NCBI GenBank assembly: GCA_903923905.1
Contig: CAIXZH010000101.1
Coordinates: 1 to 64,000 of the forward strand
Source of the DNA: an uncultured Bacteroidia bacterium
Lineage (GTDB): Bacteria; Bacteroidota; Bacteroidia; Bacteroidales; Prolixibacteraceae
Direction: 5' to 3'
Length of the DNA: 64,000 nucleotides
A model generated the notes under the pieces. That model was not told the DNA's origin, did not search any database, and was given only the letters and a program-made list of their open reading frames with translations. The position numbers and the translations under genes were made by a program. This document shows positions 19,440-35,262 of this stretch, piece by piece. Numbering within the stretch: the first letter of the stretch is position 1; every line of letters starts with the position of its first letter.

Positions 19440-21527
19440 TCAGGTCACTTTTAGGGGATAGGTGATGCGGGCGTGATAGATATTCAATAATTTTTCGAGA
19501 AAAATTTGCTGCAAAAGTGTAATATCCTTGAATGTCAAGGGTGCATAATCAAGCTGACCGGCCTTTATTTTTCGATCGAAGATAGATTCTATCAGTTCTT
19601 TAAGGTTAGCGGCATCTTTTTTATCCAGGCTTCTGGAGGCTGCCTCGATGCTGTCAGCCAACATAACCACTGCGGTTTCACGGGTTGATGGAACTGGTCC
19701 GGGATAAGTGAATGGTTTTTTATCGATCTCCTGATCAGGCTTGTTATTTAATTCAACATAAAAATAACCGGTTATTGTTGTCCCGTGATGCGTTCGGATG
19801 AAATCAATGATCTGCTCCGGAATTTTATGTTTTCTGGCAAGTTCTACTCCATTATTGACATGGTTCATGATTATTTGCGTGCTCTCCTGAACCGATCTCT
19901 GATCGTGTGGATTTATTCCAAATGTTTGATTTTCAATAAAATATTGTGGATTTACCAGTTTCCCAATATCATGGTAAAGTGCTCCAGCCCTAACCAGCAA
20001 AGGATTACCTCCAAGTTGCAGGATGGCCTCTTCAGCCAGATTGGCTACCTGCATGGAATGTTGGAAAGTACCGGGTGCCTCTTCAGCAAGTTTCCGAAGT
20101 AGTTTTTGGCTGGAGTAGGATAATTCAATCAATGTGACATCCGAAATAAACCCAAATGACTTTTCAATTACAAAAACCAGGAGATACGTAATTAACGTTA
20201 GTGCGGCATTAATGAGAAACCATTTCATAACCTCCCAGTCTATCCCTGAAAGGCTAGCCTCCTGGATCAATGAGATTCCGATATAGGTAAATGCATATAC
20301 AAAAAAGACAATAATTGAAGTCAGAATTAGCTGGTCACGCCTTTGTAGATTATTCTGACTGATCACGGCAATGCTCCCTGCTGGTATAGTAAGAAGGACG
20401 AACTCATATCCGTTGGGAACCATAAAGCCAACTATTAATGCTGTAATTGTGTTTACAAAAATGGCAAGCCGGGCGTCCAAAAAGGTTCGTATAATCAGGG
20501 CCAGGGCAGTGAATGGAACGATGTAAATCGGAATGGTATTTGAAGAAATAATGACCCGGCAAAAATAGATCATCAGAATCATCATTAGCAGGGTAAAGGT
20601 GACATCCCGTTTTGATTTCAATAACTTACGGCGAATATTGTAAATAAACAGAAATAATGTGAGCATTAACATGCAGATAAATACCGCTTTACCTAGAACG
20701 ATCAAGTAGGATTTGGTCAGATCCCCGCGGCTTTTTTCGGAGGCTGATTTCAGTGATTCCAGTATCAGATAGGTATGCGGGGAGACAACATCACCCTGCG
20801 AGACAATACGTTCTCCTTCCTGTACAACACCATTGGTCGTGCTGAGATTCTCCAGAATTTTTTGCTTTTCTGTTTCCGTCTTATCAGGATCAAAGGTAAG
20901 GTTAACAGCCAGATAATCTTCAGCATGGAATTTTTCAATAATTTGCTTTAAATCAGGATCGCCGTTTTTCAGCAGGTCAAGAGCTGAATTGGCTTCAGAA
21001 TAGGCTGTTTTTAAAGAGTATAGCTGTCCTACAGGAACTTTTTCTGCTAAATTATTTCTGACAATCAGCAACTCATTTTTACCTGATAACGCCTCCGGGT
21101 TGATTGCCCCTTGTTCGAGAATTCCTGTACAATAGATTTTGTCAAATATAGTGAGTACTTTATTTTTGACCACTCTAGAATAAAGAATCTCTGTATTTTC
21201 CTTAAGCGTGATCTCATCAATTTTTAACGAAAGTGCTATGATTTGTTGCTTTCTAACTGAGTCATGATATTGAAAATAAGGAGTTAAAGACTTTAAAAGA
21301 GAGTCGCGTTCTTCGCTGATCACCTGATCCGATTTCATAATTGCAAAGTCGAATGGAGCGATTAGGGTTGCATGCATCCAGGGTCTCCCTTTCTGAAATT
21401 CGTAGCGGAATCTCCCTTCCTGCGGCAGCGCAAAATAGAGGACAATGGCCGTAATGATAAAGATGGAGGTAATATAAATCGTGTGCCAGCTTTCCGATTC
21501 AAACCATTTTTTCTTTTGTGGATTCAT
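19440..21527 (-). CDS. 7TMR-HD family phosphodiesterase (PgpH-like)
   Basis: A 695-residue inner-membrane protein. A first membrane helix (residues ~15-32) precedes an extracytoplasmic 7TMR-HDED sensor region (about 45-270). About seven membrane segments (275-475) follow, then a cytoplasmic HD domain (490-660) with VRAGALYHDIGKLVNP and the later metal-binding MNHVNNGVELARKH and RTHHGT. In Firmicutes the homologous PgpH hydrolyses cyclic di-AMP; that role is an inference here. The gene starts 435 bases from a divergent sensor kinase, and hairpin element copy 1 lies just upstream of its start codon. Confidence 0.88.
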   Translation of the reverse strand: MNPQKKKWFESESWHTIYITSIFIITAIVLYFALPQEGRFRYEFQKGRPWMHATLIAPFDFAIMKSDQVISEERDSLLKSLTPYFQYHDSVRKQQIIALSLKIDEITLKENTEILYSRVVKNKVLTIFDKIYCTGILEQGAINPEALSGKNELLIVRNNLAEKVPVGQLYSLKTAYSEANSALDLLKNGDPDLKQIIEKFHAEDYLAVNLTFDPDKTETEKQKILENLSTTNGVVQEGERIVSQGDVVSPHTYLILESLKSASEKSRGDLTKSYLIVLGKAVFICMLMLTLFLFIYNIRRKLLKSKRDVTFTLLMMILMIYFCRVIISSNTIPIYIVPFTALALIIRTFLDARLAIFVNTITALIVGFMVPNGYEFVLLTIPAGSIAVISQNNLQRRDQLILTSIIVFFVYAFTYIGISLIQEASLSGIDWEVMKWFLINAALTLITYLLVFVIEKSFGFISDVTLIELSYSSQKLLRKLAEEAPGTFQHSMQVANLAEEAILQLGGNPLLVRAGALYHDIGKLVNPQYFIENQTFGINPHDQRSVQESTQIIMNHVNNGVELARKHKIPEQIIDFIRTHHGTTITGYFYVELNNKPDQEIDKKPFTYPGPVPSTRETAVVMLADSIEAASRSLDKKDAANLKELIESIFDRKIKAGQLDYAPLTFKDITLLQQIFLEKLLNIYHARITYPLKVT

Positions 21528-21962
21528 CCTTTTCTCTTTTCATTTGATAATAATTTGTTTTTATAAAGCCAAATGGAATAGCCATGATTGGAGGTGATTC
21601 TCATTTCCGGTTTGTGATTCATGAATCATGGCTATTTCACATGGTTCAAGCAGCAACCAATTATTTTGTTTACTTGGGAATAATCAAAAGTAATAAATAA
21701 TATTTGTTTTATTCGATTAAATCAGATTAGGTTCTTTAGATTTACAAACGATTATGAGTACAGTCGGATTAAAATTAATTCTCAATATCCACTGAAGGTT
21801 AACCATGTATAAACACTAACAACTTTATCCAAAATGATTATGCTATCTATAAGTAACGCTTATGGTTGAAAATTATGAACCAAACGTATTTATTGAATTT
21901 GTTCTGCTAAGGCTGGAAAAAGTAAGGATACAGAAGTTTTAACGTTAAAATCAAATTTTGCA
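21528..21962. other. divergent spacer holding hairpin element copy 1
   Basis: The 435-base spacer separates two divergent genes. Besides the hairpin repeat at 21549-21640 I see no gene. TTTAGATTTACAAACG near 21735 might be a weak promoter for the kinase, but no full consensus is present. Confidence 0.6.
21549..21640. repeat. structured repeat element, copy 1
   Basis: AATAGCCATGATT (21577-21589) pairs perfectly with AATCATGGCTATT (21624-21636). The element is homologous to 32717-32802: both have ATAATTTGTTTTT, then GCCA(A/G)ATGGAAT, the left arm, a conserved right loop with GGTT(T/G)GTGAT, the right arm and TTTCA. One stem pair is A-T here and C-G in the other copy. It lies in the leader region of the 7TMR-HD gene. 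It may be a REP-like or small inverted-repeat element. Confidence 0.7.
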
Positions 21963-24566
21963 ATGGACATACAGGACGAAACTAAAGAAATGCTCCTAAA
22001 CGAGCTAATGGAATTACGGCAGGAGAATACACACCTTAAGGAATTGTATGAAATGGAACTCACCCTGCGCAATTATTCAGAAGAAGCGATGCATGAATCC
22101 AATATTAAGTTAATATCGGCTTTGAAAGGCGGAAATATGGCCTGGTGGGAAATGGATGTAACAACAGGCAACGTCACTTTCGACAAACATAAGGTTGAAA
22201 TGCTGGGTTATCCACCCGAAAATTTCAAACATTACAAGGATTTTACCGCTTTGGTTCATCCTAAAGATTATAAAAGGATCATGAATGCAATGAGAGGCCA
22301 CCTTGATGGTACTCTTGACAAATATGAAACTGAATATCGGATTCTGACCAACTCAGGTGAATATATATGGTTCTATGATTATGGTTCTGTTGTAAAACGA
22401 GATGCGAATGGAAGCCCGCAAATTTGTACGGGATTTGTATTTAACATATCAGACCGAAAGGAAACCGAGCTAAATTTGCTTAAAATCACTAAAGCACTTG
22501 ATTCCGCGAGTGATGCCATTGCCATTGCTGATTCTGAAGGGCATCATTTTTATCAGAACAAAGCACTATCCAATCTATTTGGATATGAAACTGCGGAAGA
22601 GACAGAAGTGGCTGGAGGGGGTGTGGCCAGAATTAAAGACCCAGCCATTGCAAAAGAAATGTTTGACAATATCTTAAATGGTATATCCTGGTCTGGTGAA
22701 TTGGAAATGATAACAAAAAGCGGACGGATCTTTCCAGCTTATGAGCGTGCAGATGCTATTAAAGATAAGGAGGGAAATATTATTGGTATAATTGGCATAA
22801 TATCTGATATTACCGAACGCATAGAGGCTGAAAAGATTTTACGAAGAAGAGAACAATTATTTCAAACGGTCCTGGATAATTTCCCTGGGGTTGTATTTTG
22901 GAAAGACAGGCAGTCGAATTATTTAGGATGTAATCAGTCGTTTGCCTCCGGAGCAGGATTAAAAAGTCCGTCTGAGATTGTTGGAAAAAATGACTTTGAA
23001 ATGCCCTGGGGATCAGCAGAAGCCATTAATTACCTTAATGACGATAGGGATGTTATGGAATGTGGTAAAGGAAGATTGCACACTATTGAAACGCAGCATC
23101 AATTCGATGGAGAGGTAATATGGCTGGATACCAGCAAATTTCCTTTACGGGATTCAGTTGGTCAGGTAATTGGTGTCATTGGTGTATCCAATGACATTTC
23201 AACAATCAAGGCTGCAGAGCAAAAATTATTCATTAACAATAAAGAACTCCTCTTTCAAAACGAAGAGAAAGAAAAACGTGCAGCAGAATTATTTATTGCT
23301 AACAGGGAACTTAATCTTCAAAACAGGGAGAAAGAAATTCGAGCCGATGAGTTAATAATGGCCAACAAGGAACTTCTTTATCAGAATGAAGAGAAAGAAA
23401 ACCGTGCTGCAGAACTAATCATTGCCAACAAGGAACTTGGATTTCAAAACGTTGAAAGAGCGAGACGAGCAACAGAATTAATCATTGCCAACAAGGAACT
23501 TGGATTTCAAAACGTTGAAAGAGCGAGACGAGCAGCAGAATTAATCATTGCCAACAAGGAACTTGCCTTTCAAAACAGAGAAAAAGAAAAACGAGCCGAT
23601 GAGTTAAAAATGGCCAACAAGGAACTTCTTTATCAGAATAGAGAAAAAGAAAACCGCGCTGCAGAATTAGTCATTGCCAACAAGGAACTTGATTTTCAAA
23701 ATGAAGAAAAAGAAAAACGGGCGGATGAATTAATTATTGCCAATAAAGAACTTGTTTTTCAAAATGAAGAAAAAGAAAAACGGGCGGATGAATTATTGAT
23801 TGCTATGGACAAAGCCCAAGCCAGTGATCGTTTAAAAACTGCTTTTATGAATAATATTTCACATGAAATCAGAACGCCACTTAATGGCATTTTGGGAGTT
23901 GTCCCAATTATTATCCAGGATGATATCCAAATTAAAGATAAGGAGGAATTGATGGAAATTCTAAAGCTCAGTAGCAACCGTTTGATGAAAACAATTGACA
24001 ACTATATTGATCTTTCCCTGATTATTACAAAGAATATGGTAGTGAACACCAAACCCGTTAATATTTCTATAATTTTGGCGAACGCTATTGAGGTCTTTCA
24101 AGAGTCTCTTAAAAAAAATAATCTGGAGATTAAAATGCAATTCCCCGATAATCCAAATGACTATATAATATATGCGGACGGAAAAATACTGCAAAAAGCT
24201 GTTTCTGAACTGTTGGATAACTCGATAAAATTTACAAATACAGGGAGTATTACTATAGGGTTTGAATTTATAAATAGTAATATTGAAATTTTCGTAAAAG
24301 ACACGGGCATTGGTATTGAAAAAGATTTTCAAGAAAAAGTATTTGAGCGTTTTATGCAGGAAGATGTATCTGTCACACGTGAGAAGGATGGTAGTGGATT
24401 AGGGTTATCTATTGCCCAAGGAATGATTCAATTACTTGGTGGGAAAATACGTTTAGAATCAACAAAACATATAGGAACTTCTGTCTTTTTAACGCTTCCA
24501 AATTTTAAATCAACCGCTTCATCAAAGCCTAAGAATTCAACCATTGCAATCAAAGTAGAATCATGA
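21963..24566 (+). CDS. PAS-rich sensor histidine kinase with 21-residue repeats
   Basis: An 867-residue kinase without membrane segments, hence cytoplasmic. After a short coiled coil come three PAS domains (about residues 45-165, 170-290 and 295-420), each ending in a PAC-type pattern. Residues 424-612 are nine tandem 21-residue units of the form IANKELxFQNxEKEKRAxEL, a three-heptad repeat that should form one long coiled coil. The kinase core follows: His634 in SHEIRTPLNG, the N box LLDNSIKF, and DTGIGI and GSGLGLSIA in the ATPase domain. No receiver is attached. The final ATGA overlaps the next gene by four bases. The signal sensed is unknown. Confidence 0.9.
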   Translation: MDIQDETKEMLLNELMELRQENTHLKELYEMELTLRNYSEEAMHESNIKLISALKGGNMAWWEMDVTTGNVTFDKHKVEMLGYPPENFKHYKDFTALVHPKDYKRIMNAMRGHLDGTLDKYETEYRILTNSGEYIWFYDYGSVVKRDANGSPQICTGFVFNISDRKETELNLLKITKALDSASDAIAIADSEGHHFYQNKALSNLFGYETAEETEVAGGGVARIKDPAIAKEMFDNILNGISWSGELEMITKSGRIFPAYERADAIKDKEGNIIGIIGIISDITERIEAEKILRRREQLFQTVLDNFPGVVFWKDRQSNYLGCNQSFASGAGLKSPSEIVGKNDFEMPWGSAEAINYLNDDRDVMECGKGRLHTIETQHQFDGEVIWLDTSKFPLRDSVGQVIGVIGVSNDISTIKAAEQKLFINNKELLFQNEEKEKRAAELFIANRELNLQNREKEIRADELIMANKELLYQNEEKENRAAELIIANKELGFQNVERARRATELIIANKELGFQNVERARRAAELIIANKELAFQNREKEKRADELKMANKELLYQNREKENRAAELVIANKELDFQNEEKEKRADELIIANKELVFQNEEKEKRADELLIAMDKAQASDRLKTAFMNNISHEIRTPLNGILGVVPIIIQDDIQIKDKEELMEILKLSSNRLMKTIDNYIDLSLIITKNMVVNTKPVNISIILANAIEVFQESLKKNNLEIKMQFPDNPNDYIIYADGKILQKAVSELLDNSIKFTNTGSITIGFEFINSNIEIFVKDTGIGIEKDFQEKVFERFMQEDVSVTREKDGSGLGLSIAQGMIQLLGGKIRLESTKHIGTSVFLTLPNFKSTASSKPKNSTIAIKVES
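23232..23798 (+). repeat. nine 63-base in-frame repeats
   Basis: Nine units of 63 bases encode the 21-residue coiled-coil repeat of the kinase. Units 4 and 5 (23421-23546) are almost identical at the base level (FQNVERARRA), which points to a recent duplication, while the outer units differ more. The tract should be prone to gain or loss of whole units. Confidence 0.9.
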
Positions 24567-25354
24567 GATACGGAATCTCCAACTTAAGTATTGTTCCTGT
24601 TCATTCTGAACCGCGCGAAAAGGGGGAAATGTGCACTCAGATACTTTTTGGTGAACACTATACCATACTGGAAGAGCAGGCGAAATGGTGCCGGATAAAA
24701 CTTGAATTTGATGGTTATGAGGGTTGGATTGACCGCATAATGGTCAATGAAGTTGATGAACAATCCTTTGCTCAACTGTCAGATATACCCCAGATTGTGA
24801 CTACTGATGTGTTTAATATTGTTCAACAGGCAGACAATTATACCAATTTTTTAATCGTAGCTGGCAGTTCCTTGCCCCATTTTGATCCGGTTTCCCGGAC
24901 ATTTCAAATCGGCGAGGTCATTTATAATATTCTTGGTCATAATATCAGCAAGGATAGGCAGGGTGTGCGTGAAATAATTATCGATAATGCACTTAAATAC
25001 TTCAATTCTCCCTATCTTTGGGGAGGAAGGTCTCCATTTGGGATCGATTGCTCTGGTTTTACACAGGTTTTGTATAAAATGGCCGGGCTTTCCATTCCGC
25101 GGGATGCAGTTCAACAATCTCTTTTAGGTGATAACCTGAGTTTTGTTGAAGAGGCTTTGCCGGGTGACCTGGCTTTCTTCGACAACGAAGATGGCGCTAT
25201 TGTGCATGTAGGAATTATCTGGGAAAAGAATAAAATCATCCACTCATCGGGTAAGGTCCGTATAGATAATGTTGACCATTCGGGAATTTATAATATTGAT
25301 ACAAAGAGGTATACTCACCAGATGAGACTTATGCGACGGATAATCCGGGATTAA
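24563..25354 (+). CDS. NlpC/P60 peptidase with SH3 domain
   Basis: A 263-residue protein: an N-terminal bacterial SH3-like domain (residues 1-60, WCRIKLEFDGYEGWI), a middle linker (SH3-like, 80-130) and a C-terminal NlpC/P60 cysteine peptidase. Cys163 lies in FGIDCSGFTQ, and the His in AIVHVGIIW. This is the plan of gamma-D-glutamyl-L-diamino acid endopeptidases (YkfC / dipeptidyl-peptidase VI), which cut muropeptides. No signal peptide is visible, so it probably works in the cytoplasm on recycled wall peptides. It overlaps the sensor kinase by four bases and is translationally coupled to it. Confidence 0.88.
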   Translation: MRYGISNLSIVPVHSEPREKGEMCTQILFGEHYTILEEQAKWCRIKLEFDGYEGWIDRIMVNEVDEQSFAQLSDIPQIVTTDVFNIVQQADNYTNFLIVAGSSLPHFDPVSRTFQIGEVIYNILGHNISKDRQGVREIIIDNALKYFNSPYLWGGRSPFGIDCSGFTQVLYKMAGLSIPRDAVQQSLLGDNLSFVEEALPGDLAFFDNEDGAIVHVGIIWEKNKIIHSSGKVRIDNVDHSGIYNIDTKRYTHQMRLMRRIIRD

Positions 25355-25389
25355 ATACATCTCATTTCTAAACTCTAAAAAGTGAAATT

Positions 25390-25929
25390 ATGGGACATCT
25401 CGAAATCGTAGGTTATATAGCGGCAATTATTATTGTTATCTATATCGTATGGCGAAATGCCGAAAAGGAAAAGAAGGAAATTAAGGATAGAGAACTTGGG
25501 TTAAAATATTCGTATAAATATCCCCGGTTAGCCATGACCGTAGATGCTATTGTTGTAACTGAAAAGGAGGGTCAGGAAATGATCTTGCTGATTCAGCGGA
25601 AATTTGACCCTTTTCAGGGATTCTGGGCATTGCCCGGAGGCTTTGTTGGGATGGAAGAGACACTTATCCAGGCTTGCAGCCGGGAATTACTCGAAGAGAC
25701 CGGATTAAAAGAGGTCGCACTTAAGCAATTTTTTACATTTGATGCCATTGGACGCGATCCGAGGCATCGCACTGTTACTACAGTCTTTTATGGTAAGGTT
25801 AGAGGCAATTCCCAGGTTCTTGGGGGTGATGATGCCGCCATGGCAGAGTGGTTCCCATTGGATTCCCTGCCTGGTATGGCCTTCGACCATAACGATATTG
25901 TTCGGAAATTCATTAAAGAGAAGCTTTGA
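25390..25929 (+). CDS. membrane-anchored Nudix hydrolase
   Basis: A 179-residue protein with an N-terminal membrane helix (residues 5-22) followed by a charged linker and a Nudix domain. The Nudix box reads GGFVGMEETLIQACSRELLEETGL, with all metal-binding Glu and the Arg in place. The AMTVDAIVVT and GRDPRHRTVTTVFYG patterns resemble ADP-ribose pyrophosphatase or NrtR-type Nudix domains. It hydrolyses a nucleoside diphosphate linked to another moiety; the substrate is not readable. It starts 35 bases after the peptidase and ends two bases before the exonuclease start, so these genes form one operon. Confidence 0.86.
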   Translation: MGHLEIVGYIAAIIIVIYIVWRNAEKEKKEIKDRELGLKYSYKYPRLAMTVDAIVVTEKEGQEMILLIQRKFDPFQGFWALPGGFVGMEETLIQACSRELLEETGLKEVALKQFFTFDAIGRDPRHRTVTTVFYGKVRGNSQVLGGDDAAMAEWFPLDSLPGMAFDHNDIVRKFIKEKL

Positions 25930-25931
25930 AC

Positions 25932-26501
25932 ATGTATCTATTTTTTGACACTGAAACCACCGGATTACCAAAAAATTGGAAAGCTCCTGTCACTGATTTA
26001 AAAAACTGGCCAAGATTGGTGCAGTTAGCTTTTTTAATCTTTGATAAAAATGGCACTAAACTTTCGGAAGGGAATTTCATTATCAAACCGGAAGGTTTTA
26101 ATATTCCAGCAGATGTTTCGATGATCCATGGCATTTCACATGACCGGGCTGTTCGAGAAGGTGTCTCTTTAACAGAAGTTTTAAACGCATTTCATTCACT
26201 GATTGATAACTCGGAAGTCCTTGTAGCTCATAACATCAGTTTTGATGCAATGATTGTCGGAGCTGAATTTTTGAGAATGGGTCTTACCAATCCAATCCCC
26301 TCCAAAAAGAAGGTCTGCACCATGGAAAGTTCTACAAATTATTGTGCAATTCAGGGTCCATACGGATATAAATGGCCGAAGTTGTCAGAATTGCATTATA
26401 AGCTCTTCCGAACCGGTTTTGAAGAGGCCCATAATGCGGCCGTTGACATTAATGCAACTGCAAAATGTTTCTGGGAACTAAAAAGATTGGGGAAGATTTA
26501 A
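25932..26501 (+). CDS. DEDDh 3'-5' exonuclease (DnaQ-like)
   Basis: A 189-residue exonuclease domain protein starting at ATG 25932; the TTG at 25926 is a less likely start. The four motifs are FFDTETTGLP (Asp and Glu), HNISFDAMIVG, and HNAAVDINATA, giving the metal-binding Asp-Glu-Asp-His-Asp set. The segment KNWPRLVQLAFLIFD is typical of stand-alone DnaQ-like nucleases in Bacteroidota. It probably trims single-stranded DNA or RNA; no polymerase subunit is encoded nearby. Confidence 0.87.
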   Translation: MYLFFDTETTGLPKNWKAPVTDLKNWPRLVQLAFLIFDKNGTKLSEGNFIIKPEGFNIPADVSMIHGISHDRAVREGVSLTEVLNAFHSLIDNSEVLVAHNISFDAMIVGAEFLRMGLTNPIPSKKKVCTMESSTNYCAIQGPYGYKWPKLSELHYKLFRTGFEEAHNAAVDINATAKCFWELKRLGKI

Positions 26502-26564
26502 TCTGCTTTATAGTGACCGGGTGAGTTTCTTAACCTGAACATAGTCACACGGCCACTTTAGCCT

Positions 26565-27221
26565 TCAACGAATGCACGATCTCAGGTAACTGATGCTTTC
26601 TGGCCCTTCATTAAAGAGCAAATCGAGAATACTTAAATTAGGTACAAATCCCCATTTTTCATGAAATACCTGGACATATCGTACAGGGAAGAAATGTTTA
26701 TCTTCAATTTGCCTCTGAGGTTTGGGATGAATAATATAACGAAAATCATCCATAATTCCGGAAACCTGATCAACAGGAATATATTCATCAGTATATTTAA
26801 CCAGAGCATCAAAATTAATTGCCTTCAAAACAGCTTGTTGTACTTCAATATTGAAATCAGTTAAATATTTCCATCTTTTTTTTTGAAAATATGGGGCCAG
26901 GTCATCGGCATAATATTCGAAAAAAGGTGAATTGTTGTAAGCTGAACTAATCCCTCGCCAATGCATTTGTTGCCAGGGAAAGTCATAGGATAGCAACTGA
27001 TCCCGGATGGGGCCTTTTGCCCGAGGTCCATCCACTATCGGCAATGTCAATTGTAACGGACCGTTGGCAGCAAGGATTACAGTACGATTTCGGTACGATT
27101 GCTTCACATAATTCTCACAAAATTCAATGTAGATGTGAGGATAGTTAATCAATTTGGTATAATATTGAACTGGTGCAAAATAAGCAATGCTCAGCAAGGC
27201 GCATGTTTCCTGATTGTCCAT
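26565..27221 (-). CDS. WbqC family protein
   Basis: A 218-residue protein matching the WbqC-like family. Shown by AYFAPVQYYTKLINYPHIYIEFCENYVKQ-type opening (residues 13-40, seen in pieces), RNRTVILAANGPLQLTLPI and WRGISSAYNNSPFFEYY. WbqC proteins occur in O-antigen clusters, and a stand-alone copy next to lepB and dapB is usual in Bacteroidota. The biochemical role is not settled. It begins one base after the LapA-like gene ends, so it belongs to the same leftward transcript. Confidence 0.85.
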   Translation of the reverse strand: MDNQETCALLSIAYFAPVQYYTKLINYPHIYIEFCENYVKQSYRNRTVILAANGPLQLTLPIVDGPRAKGPIRDQLLSYDFPWQQMHWRGISSAYNNSPFFEYYADDLAPYFQKKRWKYLTDFNIEVQQAVLKAINFDALVKYTDEYIPVDQVSGIMDDFRYIIHPKPQRQIEDKHFFPVRYVQVFHEKWGFVPNLSILDLLFNEGPESISYLRSCIR

Positions 27222-27569
27222 TTAATAGTCGAAAAATTTGTGACCCGGCTCGCCCTCAACAGTCATTTCATCCCCGGCATCTAAATCTCCTGACTTTTGA
27301 AAGGTTTCATCTTCAGTTCCAGGATTTTCAAGCTCCCTTAATCTGACCTGAAGCTTTTTAATTCTGCTTCTCAATCTTTGTTTATCAATGTATGCAAACA
27401 GTGCGGTTACTAATACCCCAATTAGAAGGGGGATCACCAAAATCAGTGTTAGCGGGACCTCGGCGAATTTCATCCAAAGGAATTTGACCGGAACTTTGAC
27501 CGAATTTTGTAAGGCAAAAATGACCATAGCCACTCCAAACATTATTCCTGTCAGTAATCCTCGTTGCAT
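27222..27569 (-). CDS. LapA-like membrane protein (DUF1049)
   Basis: A 115-residue protein with two membrane helices (residues ~4-20 and 38-62) and a cytoplasmic coiled coil (IDKQRLRSRIKKLQVRLREL) followed by an acidic tail. This matches the lipopolysaccharide assembly protein A domain family. In Escherichia coli LapA takes part in control of LPS synthesis; an equivalent role here is inference. It is packed between a lipoprotein gene (12-base gap) and the WbqC gene (no gap). Confidence 0.75.
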   Translation of the reverse strand: MQRGLLTGIMFGVAMVIFALQNSVKVPVKFLWMKFAEVPLTLILVIPLLIGVLVTALFAYIDKQRLRSRIKKLQVRLRELENPGTEDETFQKSGDLDAGDEMTVEGEPGHKFFDY

Positions 27570-27581
27570 CGTCTGATTATT

Positions 27582-28091
27582 TTAGTTTTTTATTTGATCT
27601 CCCGATTTGATTTTTCCAGGCTTAAGCCTGACTTTACGGATTTGAGCAGTATTTATCTCCACCTTTTCATCGTCAGGGGCATTGAATTCATTCCTGAAGA
27701 ATATATTGTATACGGCGCCCAAGGGGACGATCATCCGGGCTTTCTGCAAAGGAGGCAACACTATTTCCCGAATGTCACAAAAGGACGAATCCTTCCAATG
27801 AAAATCGGTTACCATATTTACAAAAAGGGTATCATTTGAATCATTGACCAGCCTCATTTTCTTAAACGATTGAGATTGAGGATTTGCATATACATTCATG
27901 CCGGTATATAAAGCGCCCACAGAAGCCGCCACTATCAATCCAATATCGGCGATGTTGACACCAGTACGATAATTCCGCATTTGTTCTTGCCTTTTAATAC
28001 TCTGAGGATCTGCAATATAACCAGAGGCCCTGCAAGAAAGAAGAATTGCTAATGAGATAAGTACAACTATTATCCGGCTAAAAGTCCTCAT
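27582..28091 (-). CDS. hypothetical lipoprotein, 169 aa
   Basis: I do not recognise a named family. A lipoprotein signal is clear (MRTFSRIIVVLISLAILLSC, Cys at residue 20). A second hydrophobic stretch (residues ~46-64, GVNIADIGLIVAASVGALYT) may be a membrane-associated helix. The rest is a beta-rich domain with LVNDSNDTLFVNMVTDF. It lies in the dapB-lepB-WbqC transcript. An envelope role is likely from the signal alone. Confidence 0.7.
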   Translation of the reverse strand: MRTFSRIIVVLISLAILLSCRASGYIADPQSIKRQEQMRNYRTGVNIADIGLIVAASVGALYTGMNVYANPQSQSFKKMRLVNDSNDTLFVNMVTDFHWKDSSFCDIREIVLPPLQKARMIVPLGAVYNIFFRNEFNAPDDEKVEINTAQIRKVRLKPGKIKSGDQIKN

Positions 28092-28236
28092 GTATCAAAT
28101 ATTTTTAAACTCAATGGAAGTGAGTACATTCTGAAATAAATTGTCCTCTACAGGACGCCCAATCCGCAAAGCATTTATTTAAAATCTTTTCCTCGTGTTC
28201 TTCCTGTCTTTGTATAAATATTAAAACTCAGAAAGA

Positions 28237-29574
28237 CTACTTAACACTCATAAAAAACCTTTCCCAACGAATTTTAGATAAGAAACTTTTGTTCTTATCC
28301 AGTGATAGCCAAACGAAAGATGCCTTCCCTACCACATGATCTTCCGGTACAAATCCCCAGTACCTTGAATCAGCCGAATTATAGCGGTTGTCTCCCATCA
28401 TCCAGTAATAGTTCATTTTAAAAGTATAGGTCGAAGCAGGGGCTCCATTAATGTAGATGATATTTTCTTTAACCTTTAGATCATTTTCTTCGTAAACGGC
28501 TATGATTCTTTTAAATAAAGGCAGATTGGCCAACGTAAGATTGATGGTAACCCCCTTTTTTGGAATCCATATCGGGCCAAAATTATCAAGATTCCAGGTA
28601 AACTTCGGATCGCTTGGAAAGATTGCCGGATCACTATTTTCAGATGGCCAGGTCACTCTTTCCTTGGATTGGATAAACTTCATACCATCCAGCTTTTTTG
28701 CCTGTTCTGCCGTGAGGGAGAGGATGTAACGGGAGTCAGAGCCTTCAATTTCGGAACGGGTGATATCCAGTTTTTCCAGAATATTGTCGTTAATGGCTGT
28801 TCCATTGGTGGTAATCAGGTATTTATACTGGATTCCGGGAATCTCCTTTTGAGGTTTTCCATTGACATAGACCTGCCCTTTTACAAGTTTAAGGGAATCC
28901 CCGGGAATGGCGATGCAACGTTTTATATAGTTTTCCCGCTTATCTACCGGACGGTAAATAATATCTCCAAAAGTACTTTTATCACCCCAAACTCTGTCCC
29001 TGCCATAGGAACGTACCATTTCGTAATAACTTCTTTCCTGCATACTCACTGCAACGGTATCACCTTCAGGAAAGTTGAAAACTACGACATCATCGTTTTT
29101 AACCTTTCCTGTACCGGCAATTCTCCGGTAAGGATAATGGATGAGGGTTGAGAAGGATTGTACAGTATTTGAAAGCGGCATGGTATGATGCACAAACGGG
29201 AAGGAGATGGGTGTATTGGGCATTTTGGGACCGTATGCGGTTTTGCTCACAAACAGGTAATCACCAACCATCATCGATTTTTCCATAGATGAGGTAGGGA
29301 TAGTATAGGCTTCAATAAAGAAGAGCCTGATAAAAGTAGCTGCTATGACTGCGAAGATTATGGCATCAACCCACTCGACTACCTTCGTTTGCTTTCCTTC
29401 AGGAGGGTTTCTCTTTTTCCAAAAGGCCCAATGAACCTTTTTGGAAATATAGGTATCAAAAATGATCACTAATCCAATAAGCCACCAGAAATTACTTAAC
29501 CAAATAACCCATAGCAGGTAAAGACCACCAACCAGGCCAAACTTAAACCATTTGTTTTCCAATAAATTATTCAT
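28237..29574 (-). CDS. lepB: signal peptidase I
   Basis: A 445-residue inner-membrane peptidase, longer than proteobacterial LepB because of an insertion of about 130 residues (230-360) typical of Bacteroidota. Two N-terminal membrane helices (residues 12-42 and 70-88) precede the catalytic Ser96 in TIPTSSMEKS. The general base is Lys218 in YIKRCIAIPGD. The last box is GDNRYNSADSRYWGFVP. It cleaves Sec signal peptides on the outer face of the membrane. It starts 20 bases after dapB ends. Essential housekeeping gene. Confidence 0.95.
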   Translation of the reverse strand: MNNLLENKWFKFGLVGGLYLLWVIWLSNFWWLIGLVIIFDTYISKKVHWAFWKKRNPPEGKQTKVVEWVDAIIFAVIAATFIRLFFIEAYTIPTSSMEKSMMVGDYLFVSKTAYGPKMPNTPISFPFVHHTMPLSNTVQSFSTLIHYPYRRIAGTGKVKNDDVVVFNFPEGDTVAVSMQERSYYEMVRSYGRDRVWGDKSTFGDIIYRPVDKRENYIKRCIAIPGDSLKLVKGQVYVNGKPQKEIPGIQYKYLITTNGTAINDNILEKLDITRSEIEGSDSRYILSLTAEQAKKLDGMKFIQSKERVTWPSENSDPAIFPSDPKFTWNLDNFGPIWIPKKGVTINLTLANLPLFKRIIAVYEENDLKVKENIIYINGAPASTYTFKMNYYWMMGDNRYNSADSRYWGFVPEDHVVGKASFVWLSLDKNKSFLSKIRWERFFMSVK

Positions 29575-29594
29575 TCTTATTTAATTTTATTTTA

Positions 29595-30311
29595 TTAAAA
29601 ATTCAGGAGATCTGCCATTGAAAATACTCCAATGCGCCCTTTACTATATTCAGCCGCCAAAACAGCTCCAAATGCAAGCCCTTTTCTACTGTATGCGCTA
29701 TGCGTGATCTCGATATAATCCACCTCTGAATCGTATTTGATGGTATGAATTCCGGGAACCTGGCCTTCACGTATAGGGTTGATATATAGTTCGTTCTTTG
29801 ATTGAGGTTCGTGAATTGTCCACTTCGTTTTAATGTTGTTTACCGCAAGGATATCTTCAGCCAATGTGATAGCTGTCCCGCTGGGGGCATCCAGCTTCTG
29901 GGTATGGTGAACCTCAGTCATGGAAACATCATATTGGGGGAACTCTTTCATTGTTTTTGCCAGGAATTTATTCAAGGCAAAAAAGATATTAGCGCCCAGG
30001 CTGAAGTTCGATGCATAGAAAAAACAACCTTGCTGGTCGGAACAGGCTTTTTCAACGGTTGTTTTATGTTCCAGCCAGCCCGTGGTACCGCTCACCACTG
30101 CAACACCAGCTTCAAAACATTTTAAATAGTTGCCTACTGCAGTTTCCGGACCTGTGAACTCTATTGCAACATCAGCCTTGGAGAGATTCTCCATAGTCAA
30201 ATCAGCCTGATTCTGAATATCAATCTTTAGAACAATCGCGTGTCCTCGACTAATGGCAATCTGCTCGATCTCTTTTCCCATTTTCCCGTAACCGATCAGT
30301 GCAATCTTCAT
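29595..30311 (-). CDS. dapB: 4-hydroxy-tetrahydrodipicolinate reductase
   Basis: A 238-residue cytoplasmic enzyme of the diaminopimelate/lysine pathway that reduces 4-hydroxy-tetrahydrodipicolinate with NAD(P)H. The Rossmann motif is GYGKMGKEIE, the substrate region VSGTTGW and SNFSLGANIFF, and the signature EVHHTQKLDAPSGTA carries the catalytic His and Lys. It lies directly upstream of lepB, a conserved arrangement in this phylum. Length is slightly short but normal for Bacteroidota DapB. Confidence 0.95.
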   Translation of the reverse strand: MKIALIGYGKMGKEIEQIAISRGHAIVLKIDIQNQADLTMENLSKADVAIEFTGPETAVGNYLKCFEAGVAVVSGTTGWLEHKTTVEKACSDQQGCFFYASNFSLGANIFFALNKFLAKTMKEFPQYDVSMTEVHHTQKLDAPSGTAITLAEDILAVNNIKTKWTIHEPQSKNELYINPIREGQVPGIHTIKYDSEVDYIEITHSAYSRKGLAFGAVLAAEYSKGRIGVFSMADLLNF

Positions 30312-30365
30312 ATTTTTTTTTTAAGAATTTGTATCTTTTCCCTATATAGAATTGCAAAGATAAGA

Positions 30366-32330
30366 TTATTGATTATAATTATTGACTGCAAATTGATGAA
30401 TCCGGCAGGCAAAACCCTTACTTCTTTGATTCTTTGTTGCTGACACCCTCAATTGCAAGGTGTGCTTGCCTGCCAGAAGCTCATCCTCAAGCATAATCAG
30501 CCAGGGAAGATGGAGTTGCTGGCTCCATTGGGTGAACTGATCGGAAGTATTGAAGGCTGCTCCGTCAATACTATATTCAAGCATCCCTGAATCAGGACCG
30601 GAGGTAACAAATAACCCGATGGCGGTACCCGAGAATTTTAATTTTAACGTTGCCCCGGGTTGTAAGGCCTCTAGAACAGGAACATTGACAAATCCCTCCC
30701 GGGTGGACACTTTATCTTCGGGTATCCAGTTACGGATTAATTTCCAACCCGACTTCAGTTTTGCATTTTTAATCGGTTCAAAATGACCATTGACATATGA
30801 ATTAGTATCCAATGTTTTACCGGGTAGTTTTTTAGGGTTTTGTTCCATTGGAGCGGGATTTTTCCATGATGTATCAAAAAAATGCTTGATTGTTCTGAAA
30901 TAAATGGCCTGTCCAAATGGGGAAGGGTGCAGGTCTTTGAAATCATCGCGCCAGGAAAACTCCCCGTTTAGGATCCGGTCGTTTACTTCTTTGGCGAAAT
31001 CGATGGATGGAATCGCATAATATTCAGCCACTTTCTCATGTTGTTCAATCACCTCCGGTGTTTTGCCCCGGTTATAATCTGCCATCTTATCCTGATCCAC
31101 AAAGTGAAGCATCACGATATCCATATTCGGATTTGATTTGATCGCATGATAAACGATTCCTTCCATACCCCTAAGCTGCATTTTAGGACTAATACCATTA
31201 GTGGCATCATTTACTGCAGCTTCTTCGAATAATAAATCGATCATTCCTTTCGATAAAACATCACGGACGAGTCTCATGGCTCCCGGGGTAGAACCGGTCG
31301 AGGGAATACCCGCATTGATAAACTCAAAGTCAGTTTCCGGAAACTTTTGCTGCAGATAGTTGCAAATACTGTCTCGCCAACCGGAATTAAAGGTAATTGA
31401 CCCTCCGAGAAAAGCAACTCTCCCTTTTTTTTCATGGTCAAATTTTATCCGGCAATTGTCGATAGTTCCTCTAAAACTGATGACCATTTTTGAATTGGGA
31501 GGCGATGGAAGATCCTGTAGTTCGGGGGCAGTATGCGAAAGAATAAAACGTACGATAGGGTAGGGATCCTTTAAACTGTGCGGATGATGGCCTCCCCCTT
31601 CCTTGACAATAATTTGGATTTCACCCCCTGCTTCCTTATAAGTTTTTTCAAGGACATACGTATTCTCTTCAATTGGAACTGCTTCATCTTTAGCTCCGCA
31701 AACATGGATGACCGGAACACGGGCTTCTGCCAATTTCACCGCATTGTAAATAGGCATCTCCTTAAATTTATTTACGGTCAGTTCAGTGAGGTTGTAAGCT
31801 TTTAGATGAGCTTTCCAGTCATCCGGTGAGCCTGCCCCTTTCCCTTTTCCACCCGGCCAGCTACGCAGATCGCAAACCGGAGCATCGGCATAGATGCAGG
31901 CAACTTTAGTGACATTCTCTGAGCCCCAGTTGTAAACATAAAGACCTCCGCGACTGAATCCTTCGAGTACAGCTTTGGGGTTCAACTGGTATTGGGAGAT
32001 CAAATAATCGTAAAAATGGTTCCATAAATTTACAGCCTCCTGATTGCCGCAATATTCGGCAGCATCAATATAAACTACGTGAAATCCTTTCTTCAGTAAG
32101 GCTATCTCAGTTTGTGGCTCATGACCCCAGAATCGGGCTCTCCAGATCCAATGACGGCCGGCATCAGCTTTCTCAGGAAAAACGATTTTGGCATCCTGCC
32201 CCTCGAATTTAAAGTCCAGACATTTAAACCCATGATAATTGGTCTCCTGGGCTTTTATTGTCAATGAGAATGCAATAATAAATAAACTAAGAAATATCGA
32301 TTTAATATGCTGGTGGTATGCTGGTTGCAT
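30366..32330 (-). CDS. two-domain esterase: alpha/beta hydrolase plus SGNH
   Basis: A 654-residue secreted protein (signal peptide ~1-27, ending IKAQ). Residues 32-268 form an alpha/beta hydrolase with nucleophile Ser126 in GFSRGG and likely Asp215 and His248. Residues 300-480 form a separate SGNH hydrolase with Ser311 in FLGGSIT, Asn379-region blocks and Asp466/His468 in DLHPS. A C-terminal region (about 520-650) of beta type resembles a carbohydrate-binding or jelly-roll module. Both hydrolase centres look complete. It probably removes acyl groups from polysaccharides outside the cell. It precedes dapB by 54 bases on the same strand. Confidence 0.8.
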   Translation of the reverse strand: MQPAYHQHIKSIFLSLFIIAFSLTIKAQETNYHGFKCLDFKFEGQDAKIVFPEKADAGRHWIWRARFWGHEPQTEIALLKKGFHVVYIDAAEYCGNQEAVNLWNHFYDYLISQYQLNPKAVLEGFSRGGLYVYNWGSENVTKVACIYADAPVCDLRSWPGGKGKGAGSPDDWKAHLKAYNLTELTVNKFKEMPIYNAVKLAEARVPVIHVCGAKDEAVPIEENTYVLEKTYKEAGGEIQIIVKEGGGHHPHSLKDPYPIVRFILSHTAPELQDLPSPPNSKMVISFRGTIDNCRIKFDHEKKGRVAFLGGSITFNSGWRDSICNYLQQKFPETDFEFINAGIPSTGSTPGAMRLVRDVLSKGMIDLLFEEAAVNDATNGISPKMQLRGMEGIVYHAIKSNPNMDIVMLHFVDQDKMADYNRGKTPEVIEQHEKVAEYYAIPSIDFAKEVNDRILNGEFSWRDDFKDLHPSPFGQAIYFRTIKHFFDTSWKNPAPMEQNPKKLPGKTLDTNSYVNGHFEPIKNAKLKSGWKLIRNWIPEDKVSTREGFVNVPVLEALQPGATLKLKFSGTAIGLFVTSGPDSGMLEYSIDGAAFNTSDQFTQWSQQLHLPWLIMLEDELLAGKHTLQLRVSATKNQRSKGFACRIHQFAVNNYNQ

Positions 32331-32799
32331 GCAAGATTGAATTATCCGAATTACTTTGAAACTGTTTTAATTTCCCTGGAAAAGCATAATTCCGGGAATA
32401 AATTTCCCGTAGGGATTTAACCATGAATCTGTTAATGTCCTGACAGACAATTGGTCTTTTCAGACTTATTTTTCTATTGAAATTAATGACCTACGGCCAA
32501 AAAAAGGTCAATTTAATTTTTAAACAGAAGCTTAGTGATGTTTGTGAATTTATCTTTGTGAACATTGTGGTTAAAAAAGTTGCTCTAAAGCGCCATTTAT
32601 TTCACACGTATAAATTTTAATTAACTTACTAATATTTAGATTCTTGATCCGTGTGGAACCCTCATTGATTTTTACATTGCCTTTTTTGGTTGTAAGTTCA
32701 TGAGGGTTTCATCTGTATATAATTTGTTTTTTCAAGGCCAGATGGAATCGCCATGGGGAAATATTTATTTCGGTTGGTGATATTCTTATCATGGCGATT
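32331..32799. other. spacer holding hairpin element copy 2
   Basis: No gene is supported in these 469 bases between two leftward genes. The hairpin repeat at 32717-32802 touches the stop codon of the AsmA-like gene. The rest is AT-rich; TTTG and TA-rich words occur, but no convincing promoter for the esterase was found. Confidence 0.6.
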
Positions 32800-32802
32800 T
32801 CA
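32717..32802. repeat. structured repeat element, copy 2
   Basis: AATCGCCATG (32746-32755) pairs with CATGGCGATT (32790-32799). Homologous to 21549-21640 along its length, with the C-G pair replacing A-T at the same stem position. Its right end runs into the stop codon of the AsmA-like gene (32800-32802), so on that strand it would be the start of the 3' untranslated region. No T tract follows, which argues against a simple terminator. Confidence 0.7.
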
Positions 32803-35262
32803 TTTAAACAACTTATCCAGCCCGAATTTCTTGAGGGCATCCTGGATCGCCGACCCCGCCTTTTTGGTGAACTCTTTCGCAACCAGGTCCTTGGCCTCAG
32901 TTAGATCAACTTTTACGTCCGGTTTGTCGAATGACCCTCCCAGGTTGATTTCAATCGGATATTTTTTAATATTCTCAGCTCCCGGTACAAAACCGATATA
33001 GGTATTTACATCCTGACTCAGATCTTCCTTATTTACCTTGAAATCAAGTTTGTAGTCCAGAATCAGGTTTGCTGATTGCTTTCCGGATATGGTTACATCC
33101 TGTCCCGCTAACCGGGTACTAAATGGCGCGACGGTCAAACCCCCGTTTACCATTTTAAAGTTTGTTGTAAAATCGCTGATTTTGACCCGTTTAAAAAGAT
33201 CTTTTCTAAAATACTTTGCGATTTCATTAAAAAAGTCAGCTCCGACCAACTCTATATTTTTCCCGGTTAAGGTGCCTCCTCCATTTATGCTCGTAAATAC
33301 GGGTGTGTCATCGGGGCCGATTTTGCCGGTAAAAGAAATTGAAGAATTGAAGGCTCCGGTACTTTGACCTGCAATTGGAAGGAAATGCCGGATGGTTCCT
33401 GATGATTGATAGGCAGTTGGCAAATCAACATCTTTAATATCCAATTTAATATCGAAATCCGGTACTGCCCCTTTGGGTGTAGAATAGGTGCCCGAAATCA
33501 ATACTTTTCCCTGAAGCATATTCATATTCAACCCTTCAAGAATAACTTTCTGCTCTTTGATTATCACTTTCCCCGTAATTCCTGTGATGCTCAGTCTGTC
33601 ATAAAGTGCCCTGGTAACTGATGTTTGTATGGTTAAATTCAGGTTTTCAGGAATCCCCGAGGATTTACCCGCTTCACCGGACTCTTTGGATCCAGAATTT
33701 GTTTTTACCATTAACTGATTGAAATTGAAGTAGCTTGAATTAAGTGTGATCGCTCCGGTTAAAACACTTTTGCGCAACAGATAACTCCAGTAATTCGTGA
33801 TTGTTCCCTGAGCGGTAAATGTGCTCTCTCCAAAGTTTCCTGATAGCTGGGTTAATGAAATTGCTTTTGAATTCAAACTGACGTTTGCAGATTTCACCTC
33901 AAAATTTTGCGGTAAAGATTTCGAGGCAACCACGAAGTTCTGGAATGAGATCTTTCCATCGGTTTTGAAATTTTCATAGTCCCCTTTATCAATGGAGGAG
34001 TATCGTCCGTCGAATTCAACTGAGGCATCAACAATTCCTTTTAAATCAATCGAATCCATAGGGATTGCCTGCCTTAGTAAAGCAAAGTCAACTACACCTT
34101 TGAGACTTCCCTGCAATTGGGGATCGCTCACAGGTGTGGAAATACTCAAAGCAGCTTTAACCTGATTCCCGGCTAAAGAGGCATCTGCTTTCCCGATATC
34201 GACCCTGGTGAGATCGAGTACTCCCTGCGGTTTGGAAATATTGGCATTTATCTCAATCTGACCAATCTCTTTCGGTAATTTTGGATATTTCAATCGGCCA
34301 CCTGCAATTTTCAGATCGACATTAAAAGCGGGCAGAGAGTCGCCTGAATAAGTCCCTTTCACAAATCCGCCAAAAGTGATAGCGCCATTTGTTTCTATCC
34401 CTTTTAGATTTTTTTGATATTTTTCGGGAATAAAACCCAACAGATCGCCTAAGGAGGAGGTAGGTGATTTAAATGTTAAATCGAACAGGCTTGCTTTTTC
34501 GGCAAACGAAAATACTCCTTGCAATTCAATTGGCAATTTATTGATTAATAATTCGTTCTGAAGAATTTTGAAGGTTTTTTTATCAAAATCGGATTGCAGA
34601 TTTCCTTTGATTGCGATTTTCATATTTGAAATATACCGGGAACCATTGGAATCCAGGTTCAGACTGTCAGCCTGCCCTGAAATTCGGAGTTTGCTGCTAT
34701 TCCCATTGAATGCTCCGGAAAGCTCAAAATTTCCATTAAGAAGAGCGAATGATAATGGAGAGGATTCATTTTGATAGGATAGGGAAGCATCACTGATCTC
34801 AATTTTCTCCAGGTTGATTATGGAACGTTTTTTGTCGGAAGCTGTCCCTGCTCCAGGGCTGGTCTTTGTCTTTGAAATATCCCAGCTCGATTTTCCGAAT
34901 TTGTTTACCAGAATATTTATCGATGGGTGTTTAAGTTTTATGGATGAGATAATTAGCCCGTCGTTGCTCCACAAGCTTGAAATATTTACAGATATTGAAA
35001 GCTGATCTGATGTTAGCAGTTTGGAATTATCAAAATCATCAGTTCCGGTTAATGAAAGGTTTTTTAATTCAATATTTAATTGTGGAAAACTTCTGAATAG
35101 GGATAACTTAATCTTTTCGAAATCAACTTTTGCATGAACCGCATCAGTTGCAGCCCACTTGATTTTCTGCGTAATTTTATTTTCAAAAAGGATTGGAATA
35201 TTGATGAGGATTATGAGGAGTGACCCTAGAATCAGTGCTGTCTTAATTAATTTATTTTTCAT
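32800..35262 (-). CDS. AsmA family protein
   Basis: An 820-residue protein with one N-terminal membrane helix (residues ~8-25) and a long beta-rich periplasmic region. It matches the AsmA family: VDFEKIKLSLFRSFPQLNIELKNL near the start (seen in parts) and repeated beta-strand units ending in an AsmA-like C-terminal block (about 640-780, GGGTLTGKNIELVGADFF and YKLDFKVN). AsmA-like proteins are thought to bridge the two membranes and move or sort lipids. The ATG overlaps the stop of cinA (ATGA), so both are translated from one message. Confidence 0.85.
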   Translation of the reverse strand: MKNKLIKTALILGSLLIILINIPILFENKITQKIKWAATDAVHAKVDFEKIKLSLFRSFPQLNIELKNLSLTGTDDFDNSKLLTSDQLSISVNISSLWSNDGLIISSIKLKHPSINILVNKFGKSSWDISKTKTSPGAGTASDKKRSIINLEKIEISDASLSYQNESSPLSFALLNGNFELSGAFNGNSSKLRISGQADSLNLDSNGSRYISNMKIAIKGNLQSDFDKKTFKILQNELLINKLPIELQGVFSFAEKASLFDLTFKSPTSSLGDLLGFIPEKYQKNLKGIETNGAITFGGFVKGTYSGDSLPAFNVDLKIAGGRLKYPKLPKEIGQIEINANISKPQGVLDLTRVDIGKADASLAGNQVKAALSISTPVSDPQLQGSLKGVVDFALLRQAIPMDSIDLKGIVDASVEFDGRYSSIDKGDYENFKTDGKISFQNFVVASKSLPQNFEVKSANVSLNSKAISLTQLSGNFGESTFTAQGTITNYWSYLLRKSVLTGAITLNSSYFNFNQLMVKTNSGSKESGEAGKSSGIPENLNLTIQTSVTRALYDRLSITGITGKVIIKEQKVILEGLNMNMLQGKVLISGTYSTPKGAVPDFDIKLDIKDVDLPTAYQSSGTIRHFLPIAGQSTGAFNSSISFTGKIGPDDTPVFTSINGGGTLTGKNIELVGADFFNEIAKYFRKDLFKRVKISDFTTNFKMVNGGLTVAPFSTRLAGQDVTISGKQSANLILDYKLDFKVNKEDLSQDVNTYIGFVPGAENIKKYPIEINLGGSFDKPDVKVDLTEAKDLVAKEFTKKAGSAIQDALKKFGLDKLFK

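Follow-up and report, generated by a model that had tools for sequence, protein, structure and literature searches.

Two related hairpin sequences lie 11 kb apart in a 64,000-nt stretch of DNA from an uncultured Bacteroidia bacterium of the family Prolixibacteraceae (assembly GCA_903923905.1, contig CAIXZH010000101.1, positions 1 to 64,000, forward strand; hereafter the window), and they raise a key question: are they copies of a mobile repeat, or a structured RNA that serves the genes beside it? A preliminary description, made from the sequence alone, had named both possibilities, either transposable palindromes resembling repetitive extragenic palindromic (REP) sequences or a structured RNA not described before. 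We consider it probable, with moderate confidence, that the hairpins belong to a family of short, non-autonomous, REP-like mobile elements that are moved in trans. The features of mobility, namely near-copies, empty sites, a TTTCAT end owned by the element and arrays joined at that end, are shown by comparison of genome sequences. Such a family is ordinary in kind, as a REP-like non-autonomous repeat; what makes it unusual is its target, the presence of one guide facing both ends and the fact that no partner gene is visible.

Anatomy, covariation and spread of the unit

Both hairpins, their stems and the exchange of an A-T for a C-G pair were found in the sequence as first described. The exact two-arm pattern occurs at eight places in the window's own genome (G000; 5.41 Mb, 119 contigs), and the reversed control pattern at none. 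Alignment of these eight copies revealed a unit of ~ 95 nt, longer than the hairpin that had been noticed, with the order left site TTCAT, NNG, linker, CNN, guide ATGGAA, covarying hairpin and TTTCAT. Two stems are present in the aligned copies: H1, in which TTCAT(Y)TG pairs with CA(R)ATGGAA, lies upstream of the hairpin H2, in which ATGGAATAGCCATGA pairs with TCATGGCTATTTCAT. Both-sided changes are found in each stem, and one H1 pair covaries in two of the eight copies. As judged from the sequence, the guide and CNN can together form pairs with the left site, and the same guide could close the hairpin against the right end.

In the window, copy 1 (family A) occupies positions 21544–21640 of the forward strand, directly after its left site TTTCAT (21538–21543, complement ATGAAA), and ends in TTTCAC. 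Its CAA and guide ATGGAA (21570–21578) form the 3' arm of H1, pairing with TTCATTTG at 21539–21546, and also the 5' foot of H2 (21579–21634, arms TAGCCATGA / TCATGGCTA). Copy 2 (family A, 32713–32803, forward strand) has its guide ATGGAA at 32742–32747, directly preceded by a CAG that pairs with CTG at 32713–32715, followed by H2 (32748–32797, arms TCGCCATG / CATGGCGA) and the right end TTTCAT (32798–32803). The number of elements had been given as two; a third, related unit (family D, 32606–32712, forward strand) abuts copy 2, which adjoins its TTTCAT end (32707–32712), so that the two form a tandem pair. This third unit follows the left site TTTCAC (32600–32605, complement GTGAAA) and contains the guide GTGGAA (32653–32658) and the hairpin CCCTCAT / ATGAGGG; its family is also present in the own genome at loci L353 and L355–L361.

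Two covariance models were used, R1, built from the eight exact-pattern copies, and R2, a hairpin-only model with copy 2 in its training set and copy 1 outside it. R1 matched copy 1 at 21536–21642 (100.2 bits) and copy 2 at 32705–32805 (115.1 bits). R2, which together with inspection of the sequence delimited both H2 hairpins, matched copy 1 at 21573–21640 (E 5.2e-10, as a non-member), copy 2 at 32742–32803 (E 5.6e-15, as a training member) and the third unit at 32653–32712 (38.9 bits, E 5.7e-6).

The covariation of the stems was assessed on 37 hairpins chosen by motif or by R1, a choice that favours pairing. In H2, 91.7% of the cells pair and 33 cells are changed on both sides; the covariation score was 0.190 compared with 0.086 for shuffled alignments, none of 500 shuffles reached this score or the 33 both-side cells, and no slid version reached the score. 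Change of one stem arm alone, which the preliminary description regarded as evidence against its proposal, is seen in a minority of cases: most changes are paired, and unpaired cells are also present, including 11 at each of two neighbouring H2 pairs, many of which correspond to a TC/TC internal loop. The three variable positions of H1 show full Watson-Crick pairing in 81 of 98 scored units, in eight combinations that include CTG/CAG, TTG/CAA, GTG/CAC, GCG/CGC, CCG/CGG and ACG/CGT. The pairing of the guide ATGGAA with TTTCAT contains one G.T wobble, equal to an A.C mismatch on the gene-sense strand; all 37 rows have G.T at this pair, the rows having been selected on the motif, as the 147 units of the wobble count had been on [AG]TGGAA.

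How widely are such units distributed? R1 gave 40 matches in the own genome at E<=1e-3, and four further weak matches (E<=0.05) in 30 of its stretches of 20 kb; in most of 30 copies that R1 found in the own genome, the hairpin foot is ATGGAA. Across 41 genomes, the own one included, 26 were positive with 1 to 60 matches each, and in the one-match genomes G004, G007 and G016 the matches are weak, only partly matched by R2 and may not be units. In the class Bacteroidia, 24 of 156 genera and 40 of 295 genomes (own included) were positive with R2, no more than 18 candidates having been scored in any genome. An exact-pattern scan of GTDB contigs returned 75 stretches in Bacteroidota-titled records, 36 of them in one metagenome-assembled genome, bin51 (G041). 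The high copy number known from extragenic palindromes is found in the own genome and in relatives. Near-identical copies of the unit are present in G092 and G217, and bin51 contains tandem arrays with several linker types and linker/hairpin chimeras; the arrays are joined at the TTTCAT end. Neither the one copy nor the one pattern used as queries had a match in collections of phage, plasmid and viral contigs. Several literature searches, some of them narrow and so weak evidence of novelty, found no description of such an element.

Some units depart from this plan. Those at L030 and L032 have ~ 20 extra bases (GAATCGAAGATCAGCG...) between guide and hairpin, and longer R1 matches in G006 may be alike; L155, L173 and L188 are chimeric, with the linker of one family and the hairpin of another; and the G116 units L336, L340 and L341 carry another palindrome (CCTGCCTACCGCAGGCAGG) at the linker/guide border.

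Empty sites and the relation of guide to target

Orthologous places without a unit were found in relatives in three cases. At dxr, the unit of the own genome stands directly before ATGAAA, and all 13 relatives with a visible start region are without it. A motif match ~ 0.9 kb upstream of dxr in L077 had no fitting left site nearby and was taken as chance. At metF, the unit likewise directly precedes the start, and the leader is without it in 15 of 16 relatives; G001 has a unit of another subfamily ~ 40 nt before a GTG start, independent of that in the own genome. The third case is the gene of a conserved 820-aa protein (32800–35262, reverse strand), which has no match in Pfam; at its 3' end, the gene adjoins the array formed by the third unit and copy 2. 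The second hairpin had been said to touch a stop codon, and indeed the TTTCAT end of copy 2 supplies it, TCA at 32800–32802 being the TGA of this gene. A motif scan found no unit beside the gene in any of 15 relatives, the sequence after the gene being limited to ~ 200 nt in L380. The C-terminal residues, read in 14 of these 15, are LDKLFK in 13 and LDQLFK in one; in the remaining copy, from G001, an internal TAG is present. When the flanks of the array in the own genome are rejoined by eye, they read ...TTTAA|GTGAAA, giving K-stop with TGA, and after insertion the unit's own ATGAAA provides the stop as AAA-TGA. The arrangement suggests that the third unit entered first at TTTCAC and copy 2 then at the TTTCAT that the third unit had brought. 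Together, the three empty sites indicate precise insertion just 3' of TTCAT or TTCAC: the short target lies directly 5' of each insertion, and there is no additional target duplication.

Is the target set by the guide? Units with the guide ATGGAA have the left site TTCAT in 123 cases and TTCAC in 2, while those with GTGGAA have TTCAC in 7 and TTCAT in 1; a further 39 of the 172 units, 6 of them G-guide, are without a scored left site. The G-guide family of the own genome (L353, L355–L361 and the third unit of the window) combines GTGGAA with a left site that is mostly TTCAC. This co-change of guide and left site matches what guide-directed target choice predicts. The sequence is consistent with a hairpin whose 5' guide pairs with the target, as seen in the covariation of H1 and H2 and in the co-change, which comes mostly from one lineage; within one genome, such a natural change of guide and target would offer a ready-made test of guide-directed insertion.

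We propose a mechanism modelled on the IS200/IS605 and REP systems. The substrate would be folded single-stranded DNA, namely the strand reading TTCAT-element-TTTCAT. Within it, the guide ATGGAA, with CNN, would pair with both the left site and the right end, directing cleavage and target choice, and a putative mobilising enzyme would act in trans. Insertions that are tolerated would often lie directly before M-K or M-N start codons, the unit becoming the new 5' leader.

With IS200/IS605 elements and their non-autonomous derivatives, the units share an insertion point 3' of a short, constant target that is retained at the left end, a hairpin whose foot has a guide immediately on its 5' side, a right end that also pairs with a guide, and a target choice tied to the guide, as guides are described in PMC6006769. 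They differ in that the two ends seem to share one hairpin and one guide, in a natural pairing of 6–9 nt rather than a tetranucleotide, in their frequent placement at start codons and in that no tnpA copy with these ends was found in the fetched loci. With REP sequences and their TnpA_REP or REP-associated tyrosine transposase (RAYT) genes (REPtrons) they share extragenic location, many copies, a hairpin with a 5' guide, clusters and genome-specific variants, but the foot is ATGGAA or GTGGAA compared with GT[AG]G in REP, and the unit of ~ 95 nt has a linker and forms arrays of direct units. The palindrome-associated transposable elements of Haloquadratum are alike by name alone, as short palindromic transposable elements.

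The search for a mobilising enzyme

Another important question is which gene moves the units. The search covered Y1 transposases (Pfam PF01797) in the own genome, 18 genomes of the genus, 5 genomes behind the GTDB loci and 10 further genomes; among the fetched loci, 35 were scanned with R1, these and 10 more with R2, 24 with R2 and 30 with the exact motif. Y1 transposases were present in all 18 genus genomes, and units were found by R1 or R2 in 5 of 45 Y1 loci (L110, L114, L120, L122 and L215). In L110, L114 and L122, the unit lies roughly 0.4 to 1 kb from the Y1 gene, at the start of another open reading frame (ORF) in L114 and at no ORF of 60 aa in the other two. L120, with a unit at the Y1 start codon, and L215, with a unit inside the 3' end of the Y1 gene, were considered as partner genes and rejected: both lie near different palindromes (ACCGCGTAGCGGT in L120), and the unit looks like an incidental insertion. 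Other Y1 genes also stand beside palindromes of their own (GGATTTGCAATCC in L071, others at further inspected loci), and by eye neither unit nor palindrome was seen in the flanks of six copies of the MSKEFISC-type Y1 that many genus genomes carry.

The RAYT-type partner suggested in the preliminary description was not recovered: among the RAYT matches fetched, which were a part of the total, none was flanked by copies of the unit, and the inspected Y1 genes, those of the RAYT type included, stand beside other palindromes or beside none. The R2 search of 24 loci placed one unit at ~ 1 kb from a RAYT-like match (L268), at no ORF start. The likeness to REP sequences is supported in anatomy and in mobility, by the many copies, the covarying stems and the empty sites, but not in the partner gene.

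A further observation concerns the Y1 genes themselves. Those of the YxxxQxxHH type, assigned by motif (L067, L069, L070, L120, L211 and L214), have their own short palindromes nearby, e.g. ACCGCGTAGCGGT, ACCCCCAATTATTTATTGGGGGT and GCCGCATCGCGGCG; this type corresponds to subclass 1.2, for which the relevant part of PMC6006769 lists no secondary structures.

Several observations weigh against REP-like elements moved in trans, and the missing partner is the main weakness of this explanation. No evidently cognate transposase gene was found among the inspected Y1 loci, the only enzyme family searched; G260 (5 contigs, listed as 100% complete) has five R2 matches, and G116 (86% complete) six, both with no Y1_Tnp match. 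The G260 copies differ among themselves, so that a partner may have been lost. No autonomous copy was seen, the linkers of 142 examined units being short by distance and inspection, with no ORF search run. The scored G-guide units all come from a single lineage of one genome and thus represent little more than one event, so that the Fisher p overstates the guide/target co-change; three G116 units with GTGGAA keep TTCAT, another palindrome having inserted beside their guide. The motifs and models used to find the units already contain the pairing, two of the five covariation measures did not rise above the shuffles (5 vs 4.0 for pairs with changes on both sides, 14 vs 14.1 for further types of pair), and within the stem, 18 G-T compared with 11 A-C amount to a weak strand bias.

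A Y1 partner may have been lost or may be located elsewhere, or else the units may be moved by an enzyme of a different kind. That the units are mobile by means of an enzyme other than the Y1 type is possible, if on the whole unlikely; for instance, an RNA copy (gene-sense RNA with AUGAAA at both ends) might use a nicked TTTCAT end as primer, or a different recombinase might act on the folded strand. This would agree with the absence of a Y1 match from G260, with the 30 Y1 loci of the ten further genomes, in which the motif scan found no unit, and with bin51, where the sole Y1 match found (L215, 1489–1995) lies in a gene with a different palindrome nearby, itself struck by a unit near its 3' end. 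The guide anatomy and the co-change of guide and left site fit Y1 logic instead, and nothing positive was found for a particular alternative in searches limited to Y1.

Start codons and a possible role in host genes

Because TTCAT is ATGAA on the other strand, the units often sit at start codons. Among the first 58 copies examined, an ORF of >=60 aa begins at or within a few bases of the left-site ATG and leads away from the unit in 40, some of these ORFs being cut by the end of the locus; among the R1 copies of the own genome, the figure is 24 of 40. In a motif-based count of outer ATGGAA units, in which identical sequences were entered once and 24 inner array members and 6 units lacking a left site were left out, the left site begins an ORF in 85 of 126: 20/26 in the own genome, 14/19 in relatives, 21/26 in other named GTDB genomes, 11/16 elsewhere in the class, 19/36 in bin51 and 0/3 in Y1 and other loci. 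As a background, 664 kb of the own genome contain 2784 ATGAA sites, with 2267 in genes, 212 at starts and 305 elsewhere between genes according to a simple longest-ORF gene caller and a generous definition of starts, so that starts make up 41% of the non-genic sites. Over this background, the excess in the own genome is moderate (24/40, p 0.012; 24/37 after removal of three inner array members, p 0.003), and much of the pattern is due to the target sequence and the loss of insertions inside genes. G-guide units in the own genome are at an ORF start in one of eight cases.

An insertion that ends exactly at an ATG exchanges the 5' leader and leaves the protein untouched, which would make a selfish repeat nearly harmless and perhaps rewire the expression of many genes. 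The family A linker places A-rich sequence at about -11 to -20 before the ATG, and the unit has C at -3; in Flavobacterium johnsoniae, according to PMC6847099, initiation is promoted by adenines at -3, -6, -12 and -13 and impeded by structure. Folds predicted for gene-sense segments of 130 nt have a fully paired AUG at 15 of 24 starts with a unit, compared with 46 of 135 control starts (p 0.012). Such pairing might lower or regulate translation of the host gene. A bolder proposal, which we regard as doubtful, is that the units are orphan, start-codon-seeking elements moved by a non-Y1 enzyme, each insertion, with its A-rich leader and start-pairing guide, acting as a portable translational switch.

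Could they instead be a cis-regulatory RNA, kept in 5' leaders for translation control, whose UUCCAU pairs with the start codon or with an upstream AUGAAA copy? The structured RNA of the preliminary description draws some support from the predicted pairing of the AUG and from the position of units directly before start codons in many genera, but we consider it improbable. Rfam searches matched no unit to a curated family at its gathering score: the window gave one tRNA alone, and the loci three weak matches (L001, L004 and L005), none on a unit. Within one genus the number of matches varies from 1 to 60 per genome, the downstream genes are of different kinds as judged by their translations, orthologues occur without the unit, units form tandem arrays, the G-guide units of the own genome are seldom at starts, and both alternative pairings contain the A.C mismatch on the gene-sense strand. 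A miniature inverted-repeat transposable element belonging to a DDE transposon, of the ordinary type that has terminal inverted repeats and duplicates its target, is scarcely credible: the units are short, multi-copy and non-coding, and the flanking TTTCAT copies resemble a target duplication, but the ends are direct (TTTCAT..TTTCAT) rather than inverted, and the right end is TTTCAT even where the left site is TTTCAC and so belongs to the element.

Copy 1 had been placed before a phosphodiesterase gene; it does lie upstream of a gene (19440–21527, reverse strand), which by Pfam (PF07698, PF01966) encodes a 7TM-HD hydrolase. The ATG at the left end of copy 1 stands 16 nt before the ATG of this gene, in a different frame. 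A repeat of another sort is also found in the window: positions 23224–23853 contain seven tandem copies with a spacing of 63 nt, inside the ORF of a PAS histidine kinase (21963–24566).

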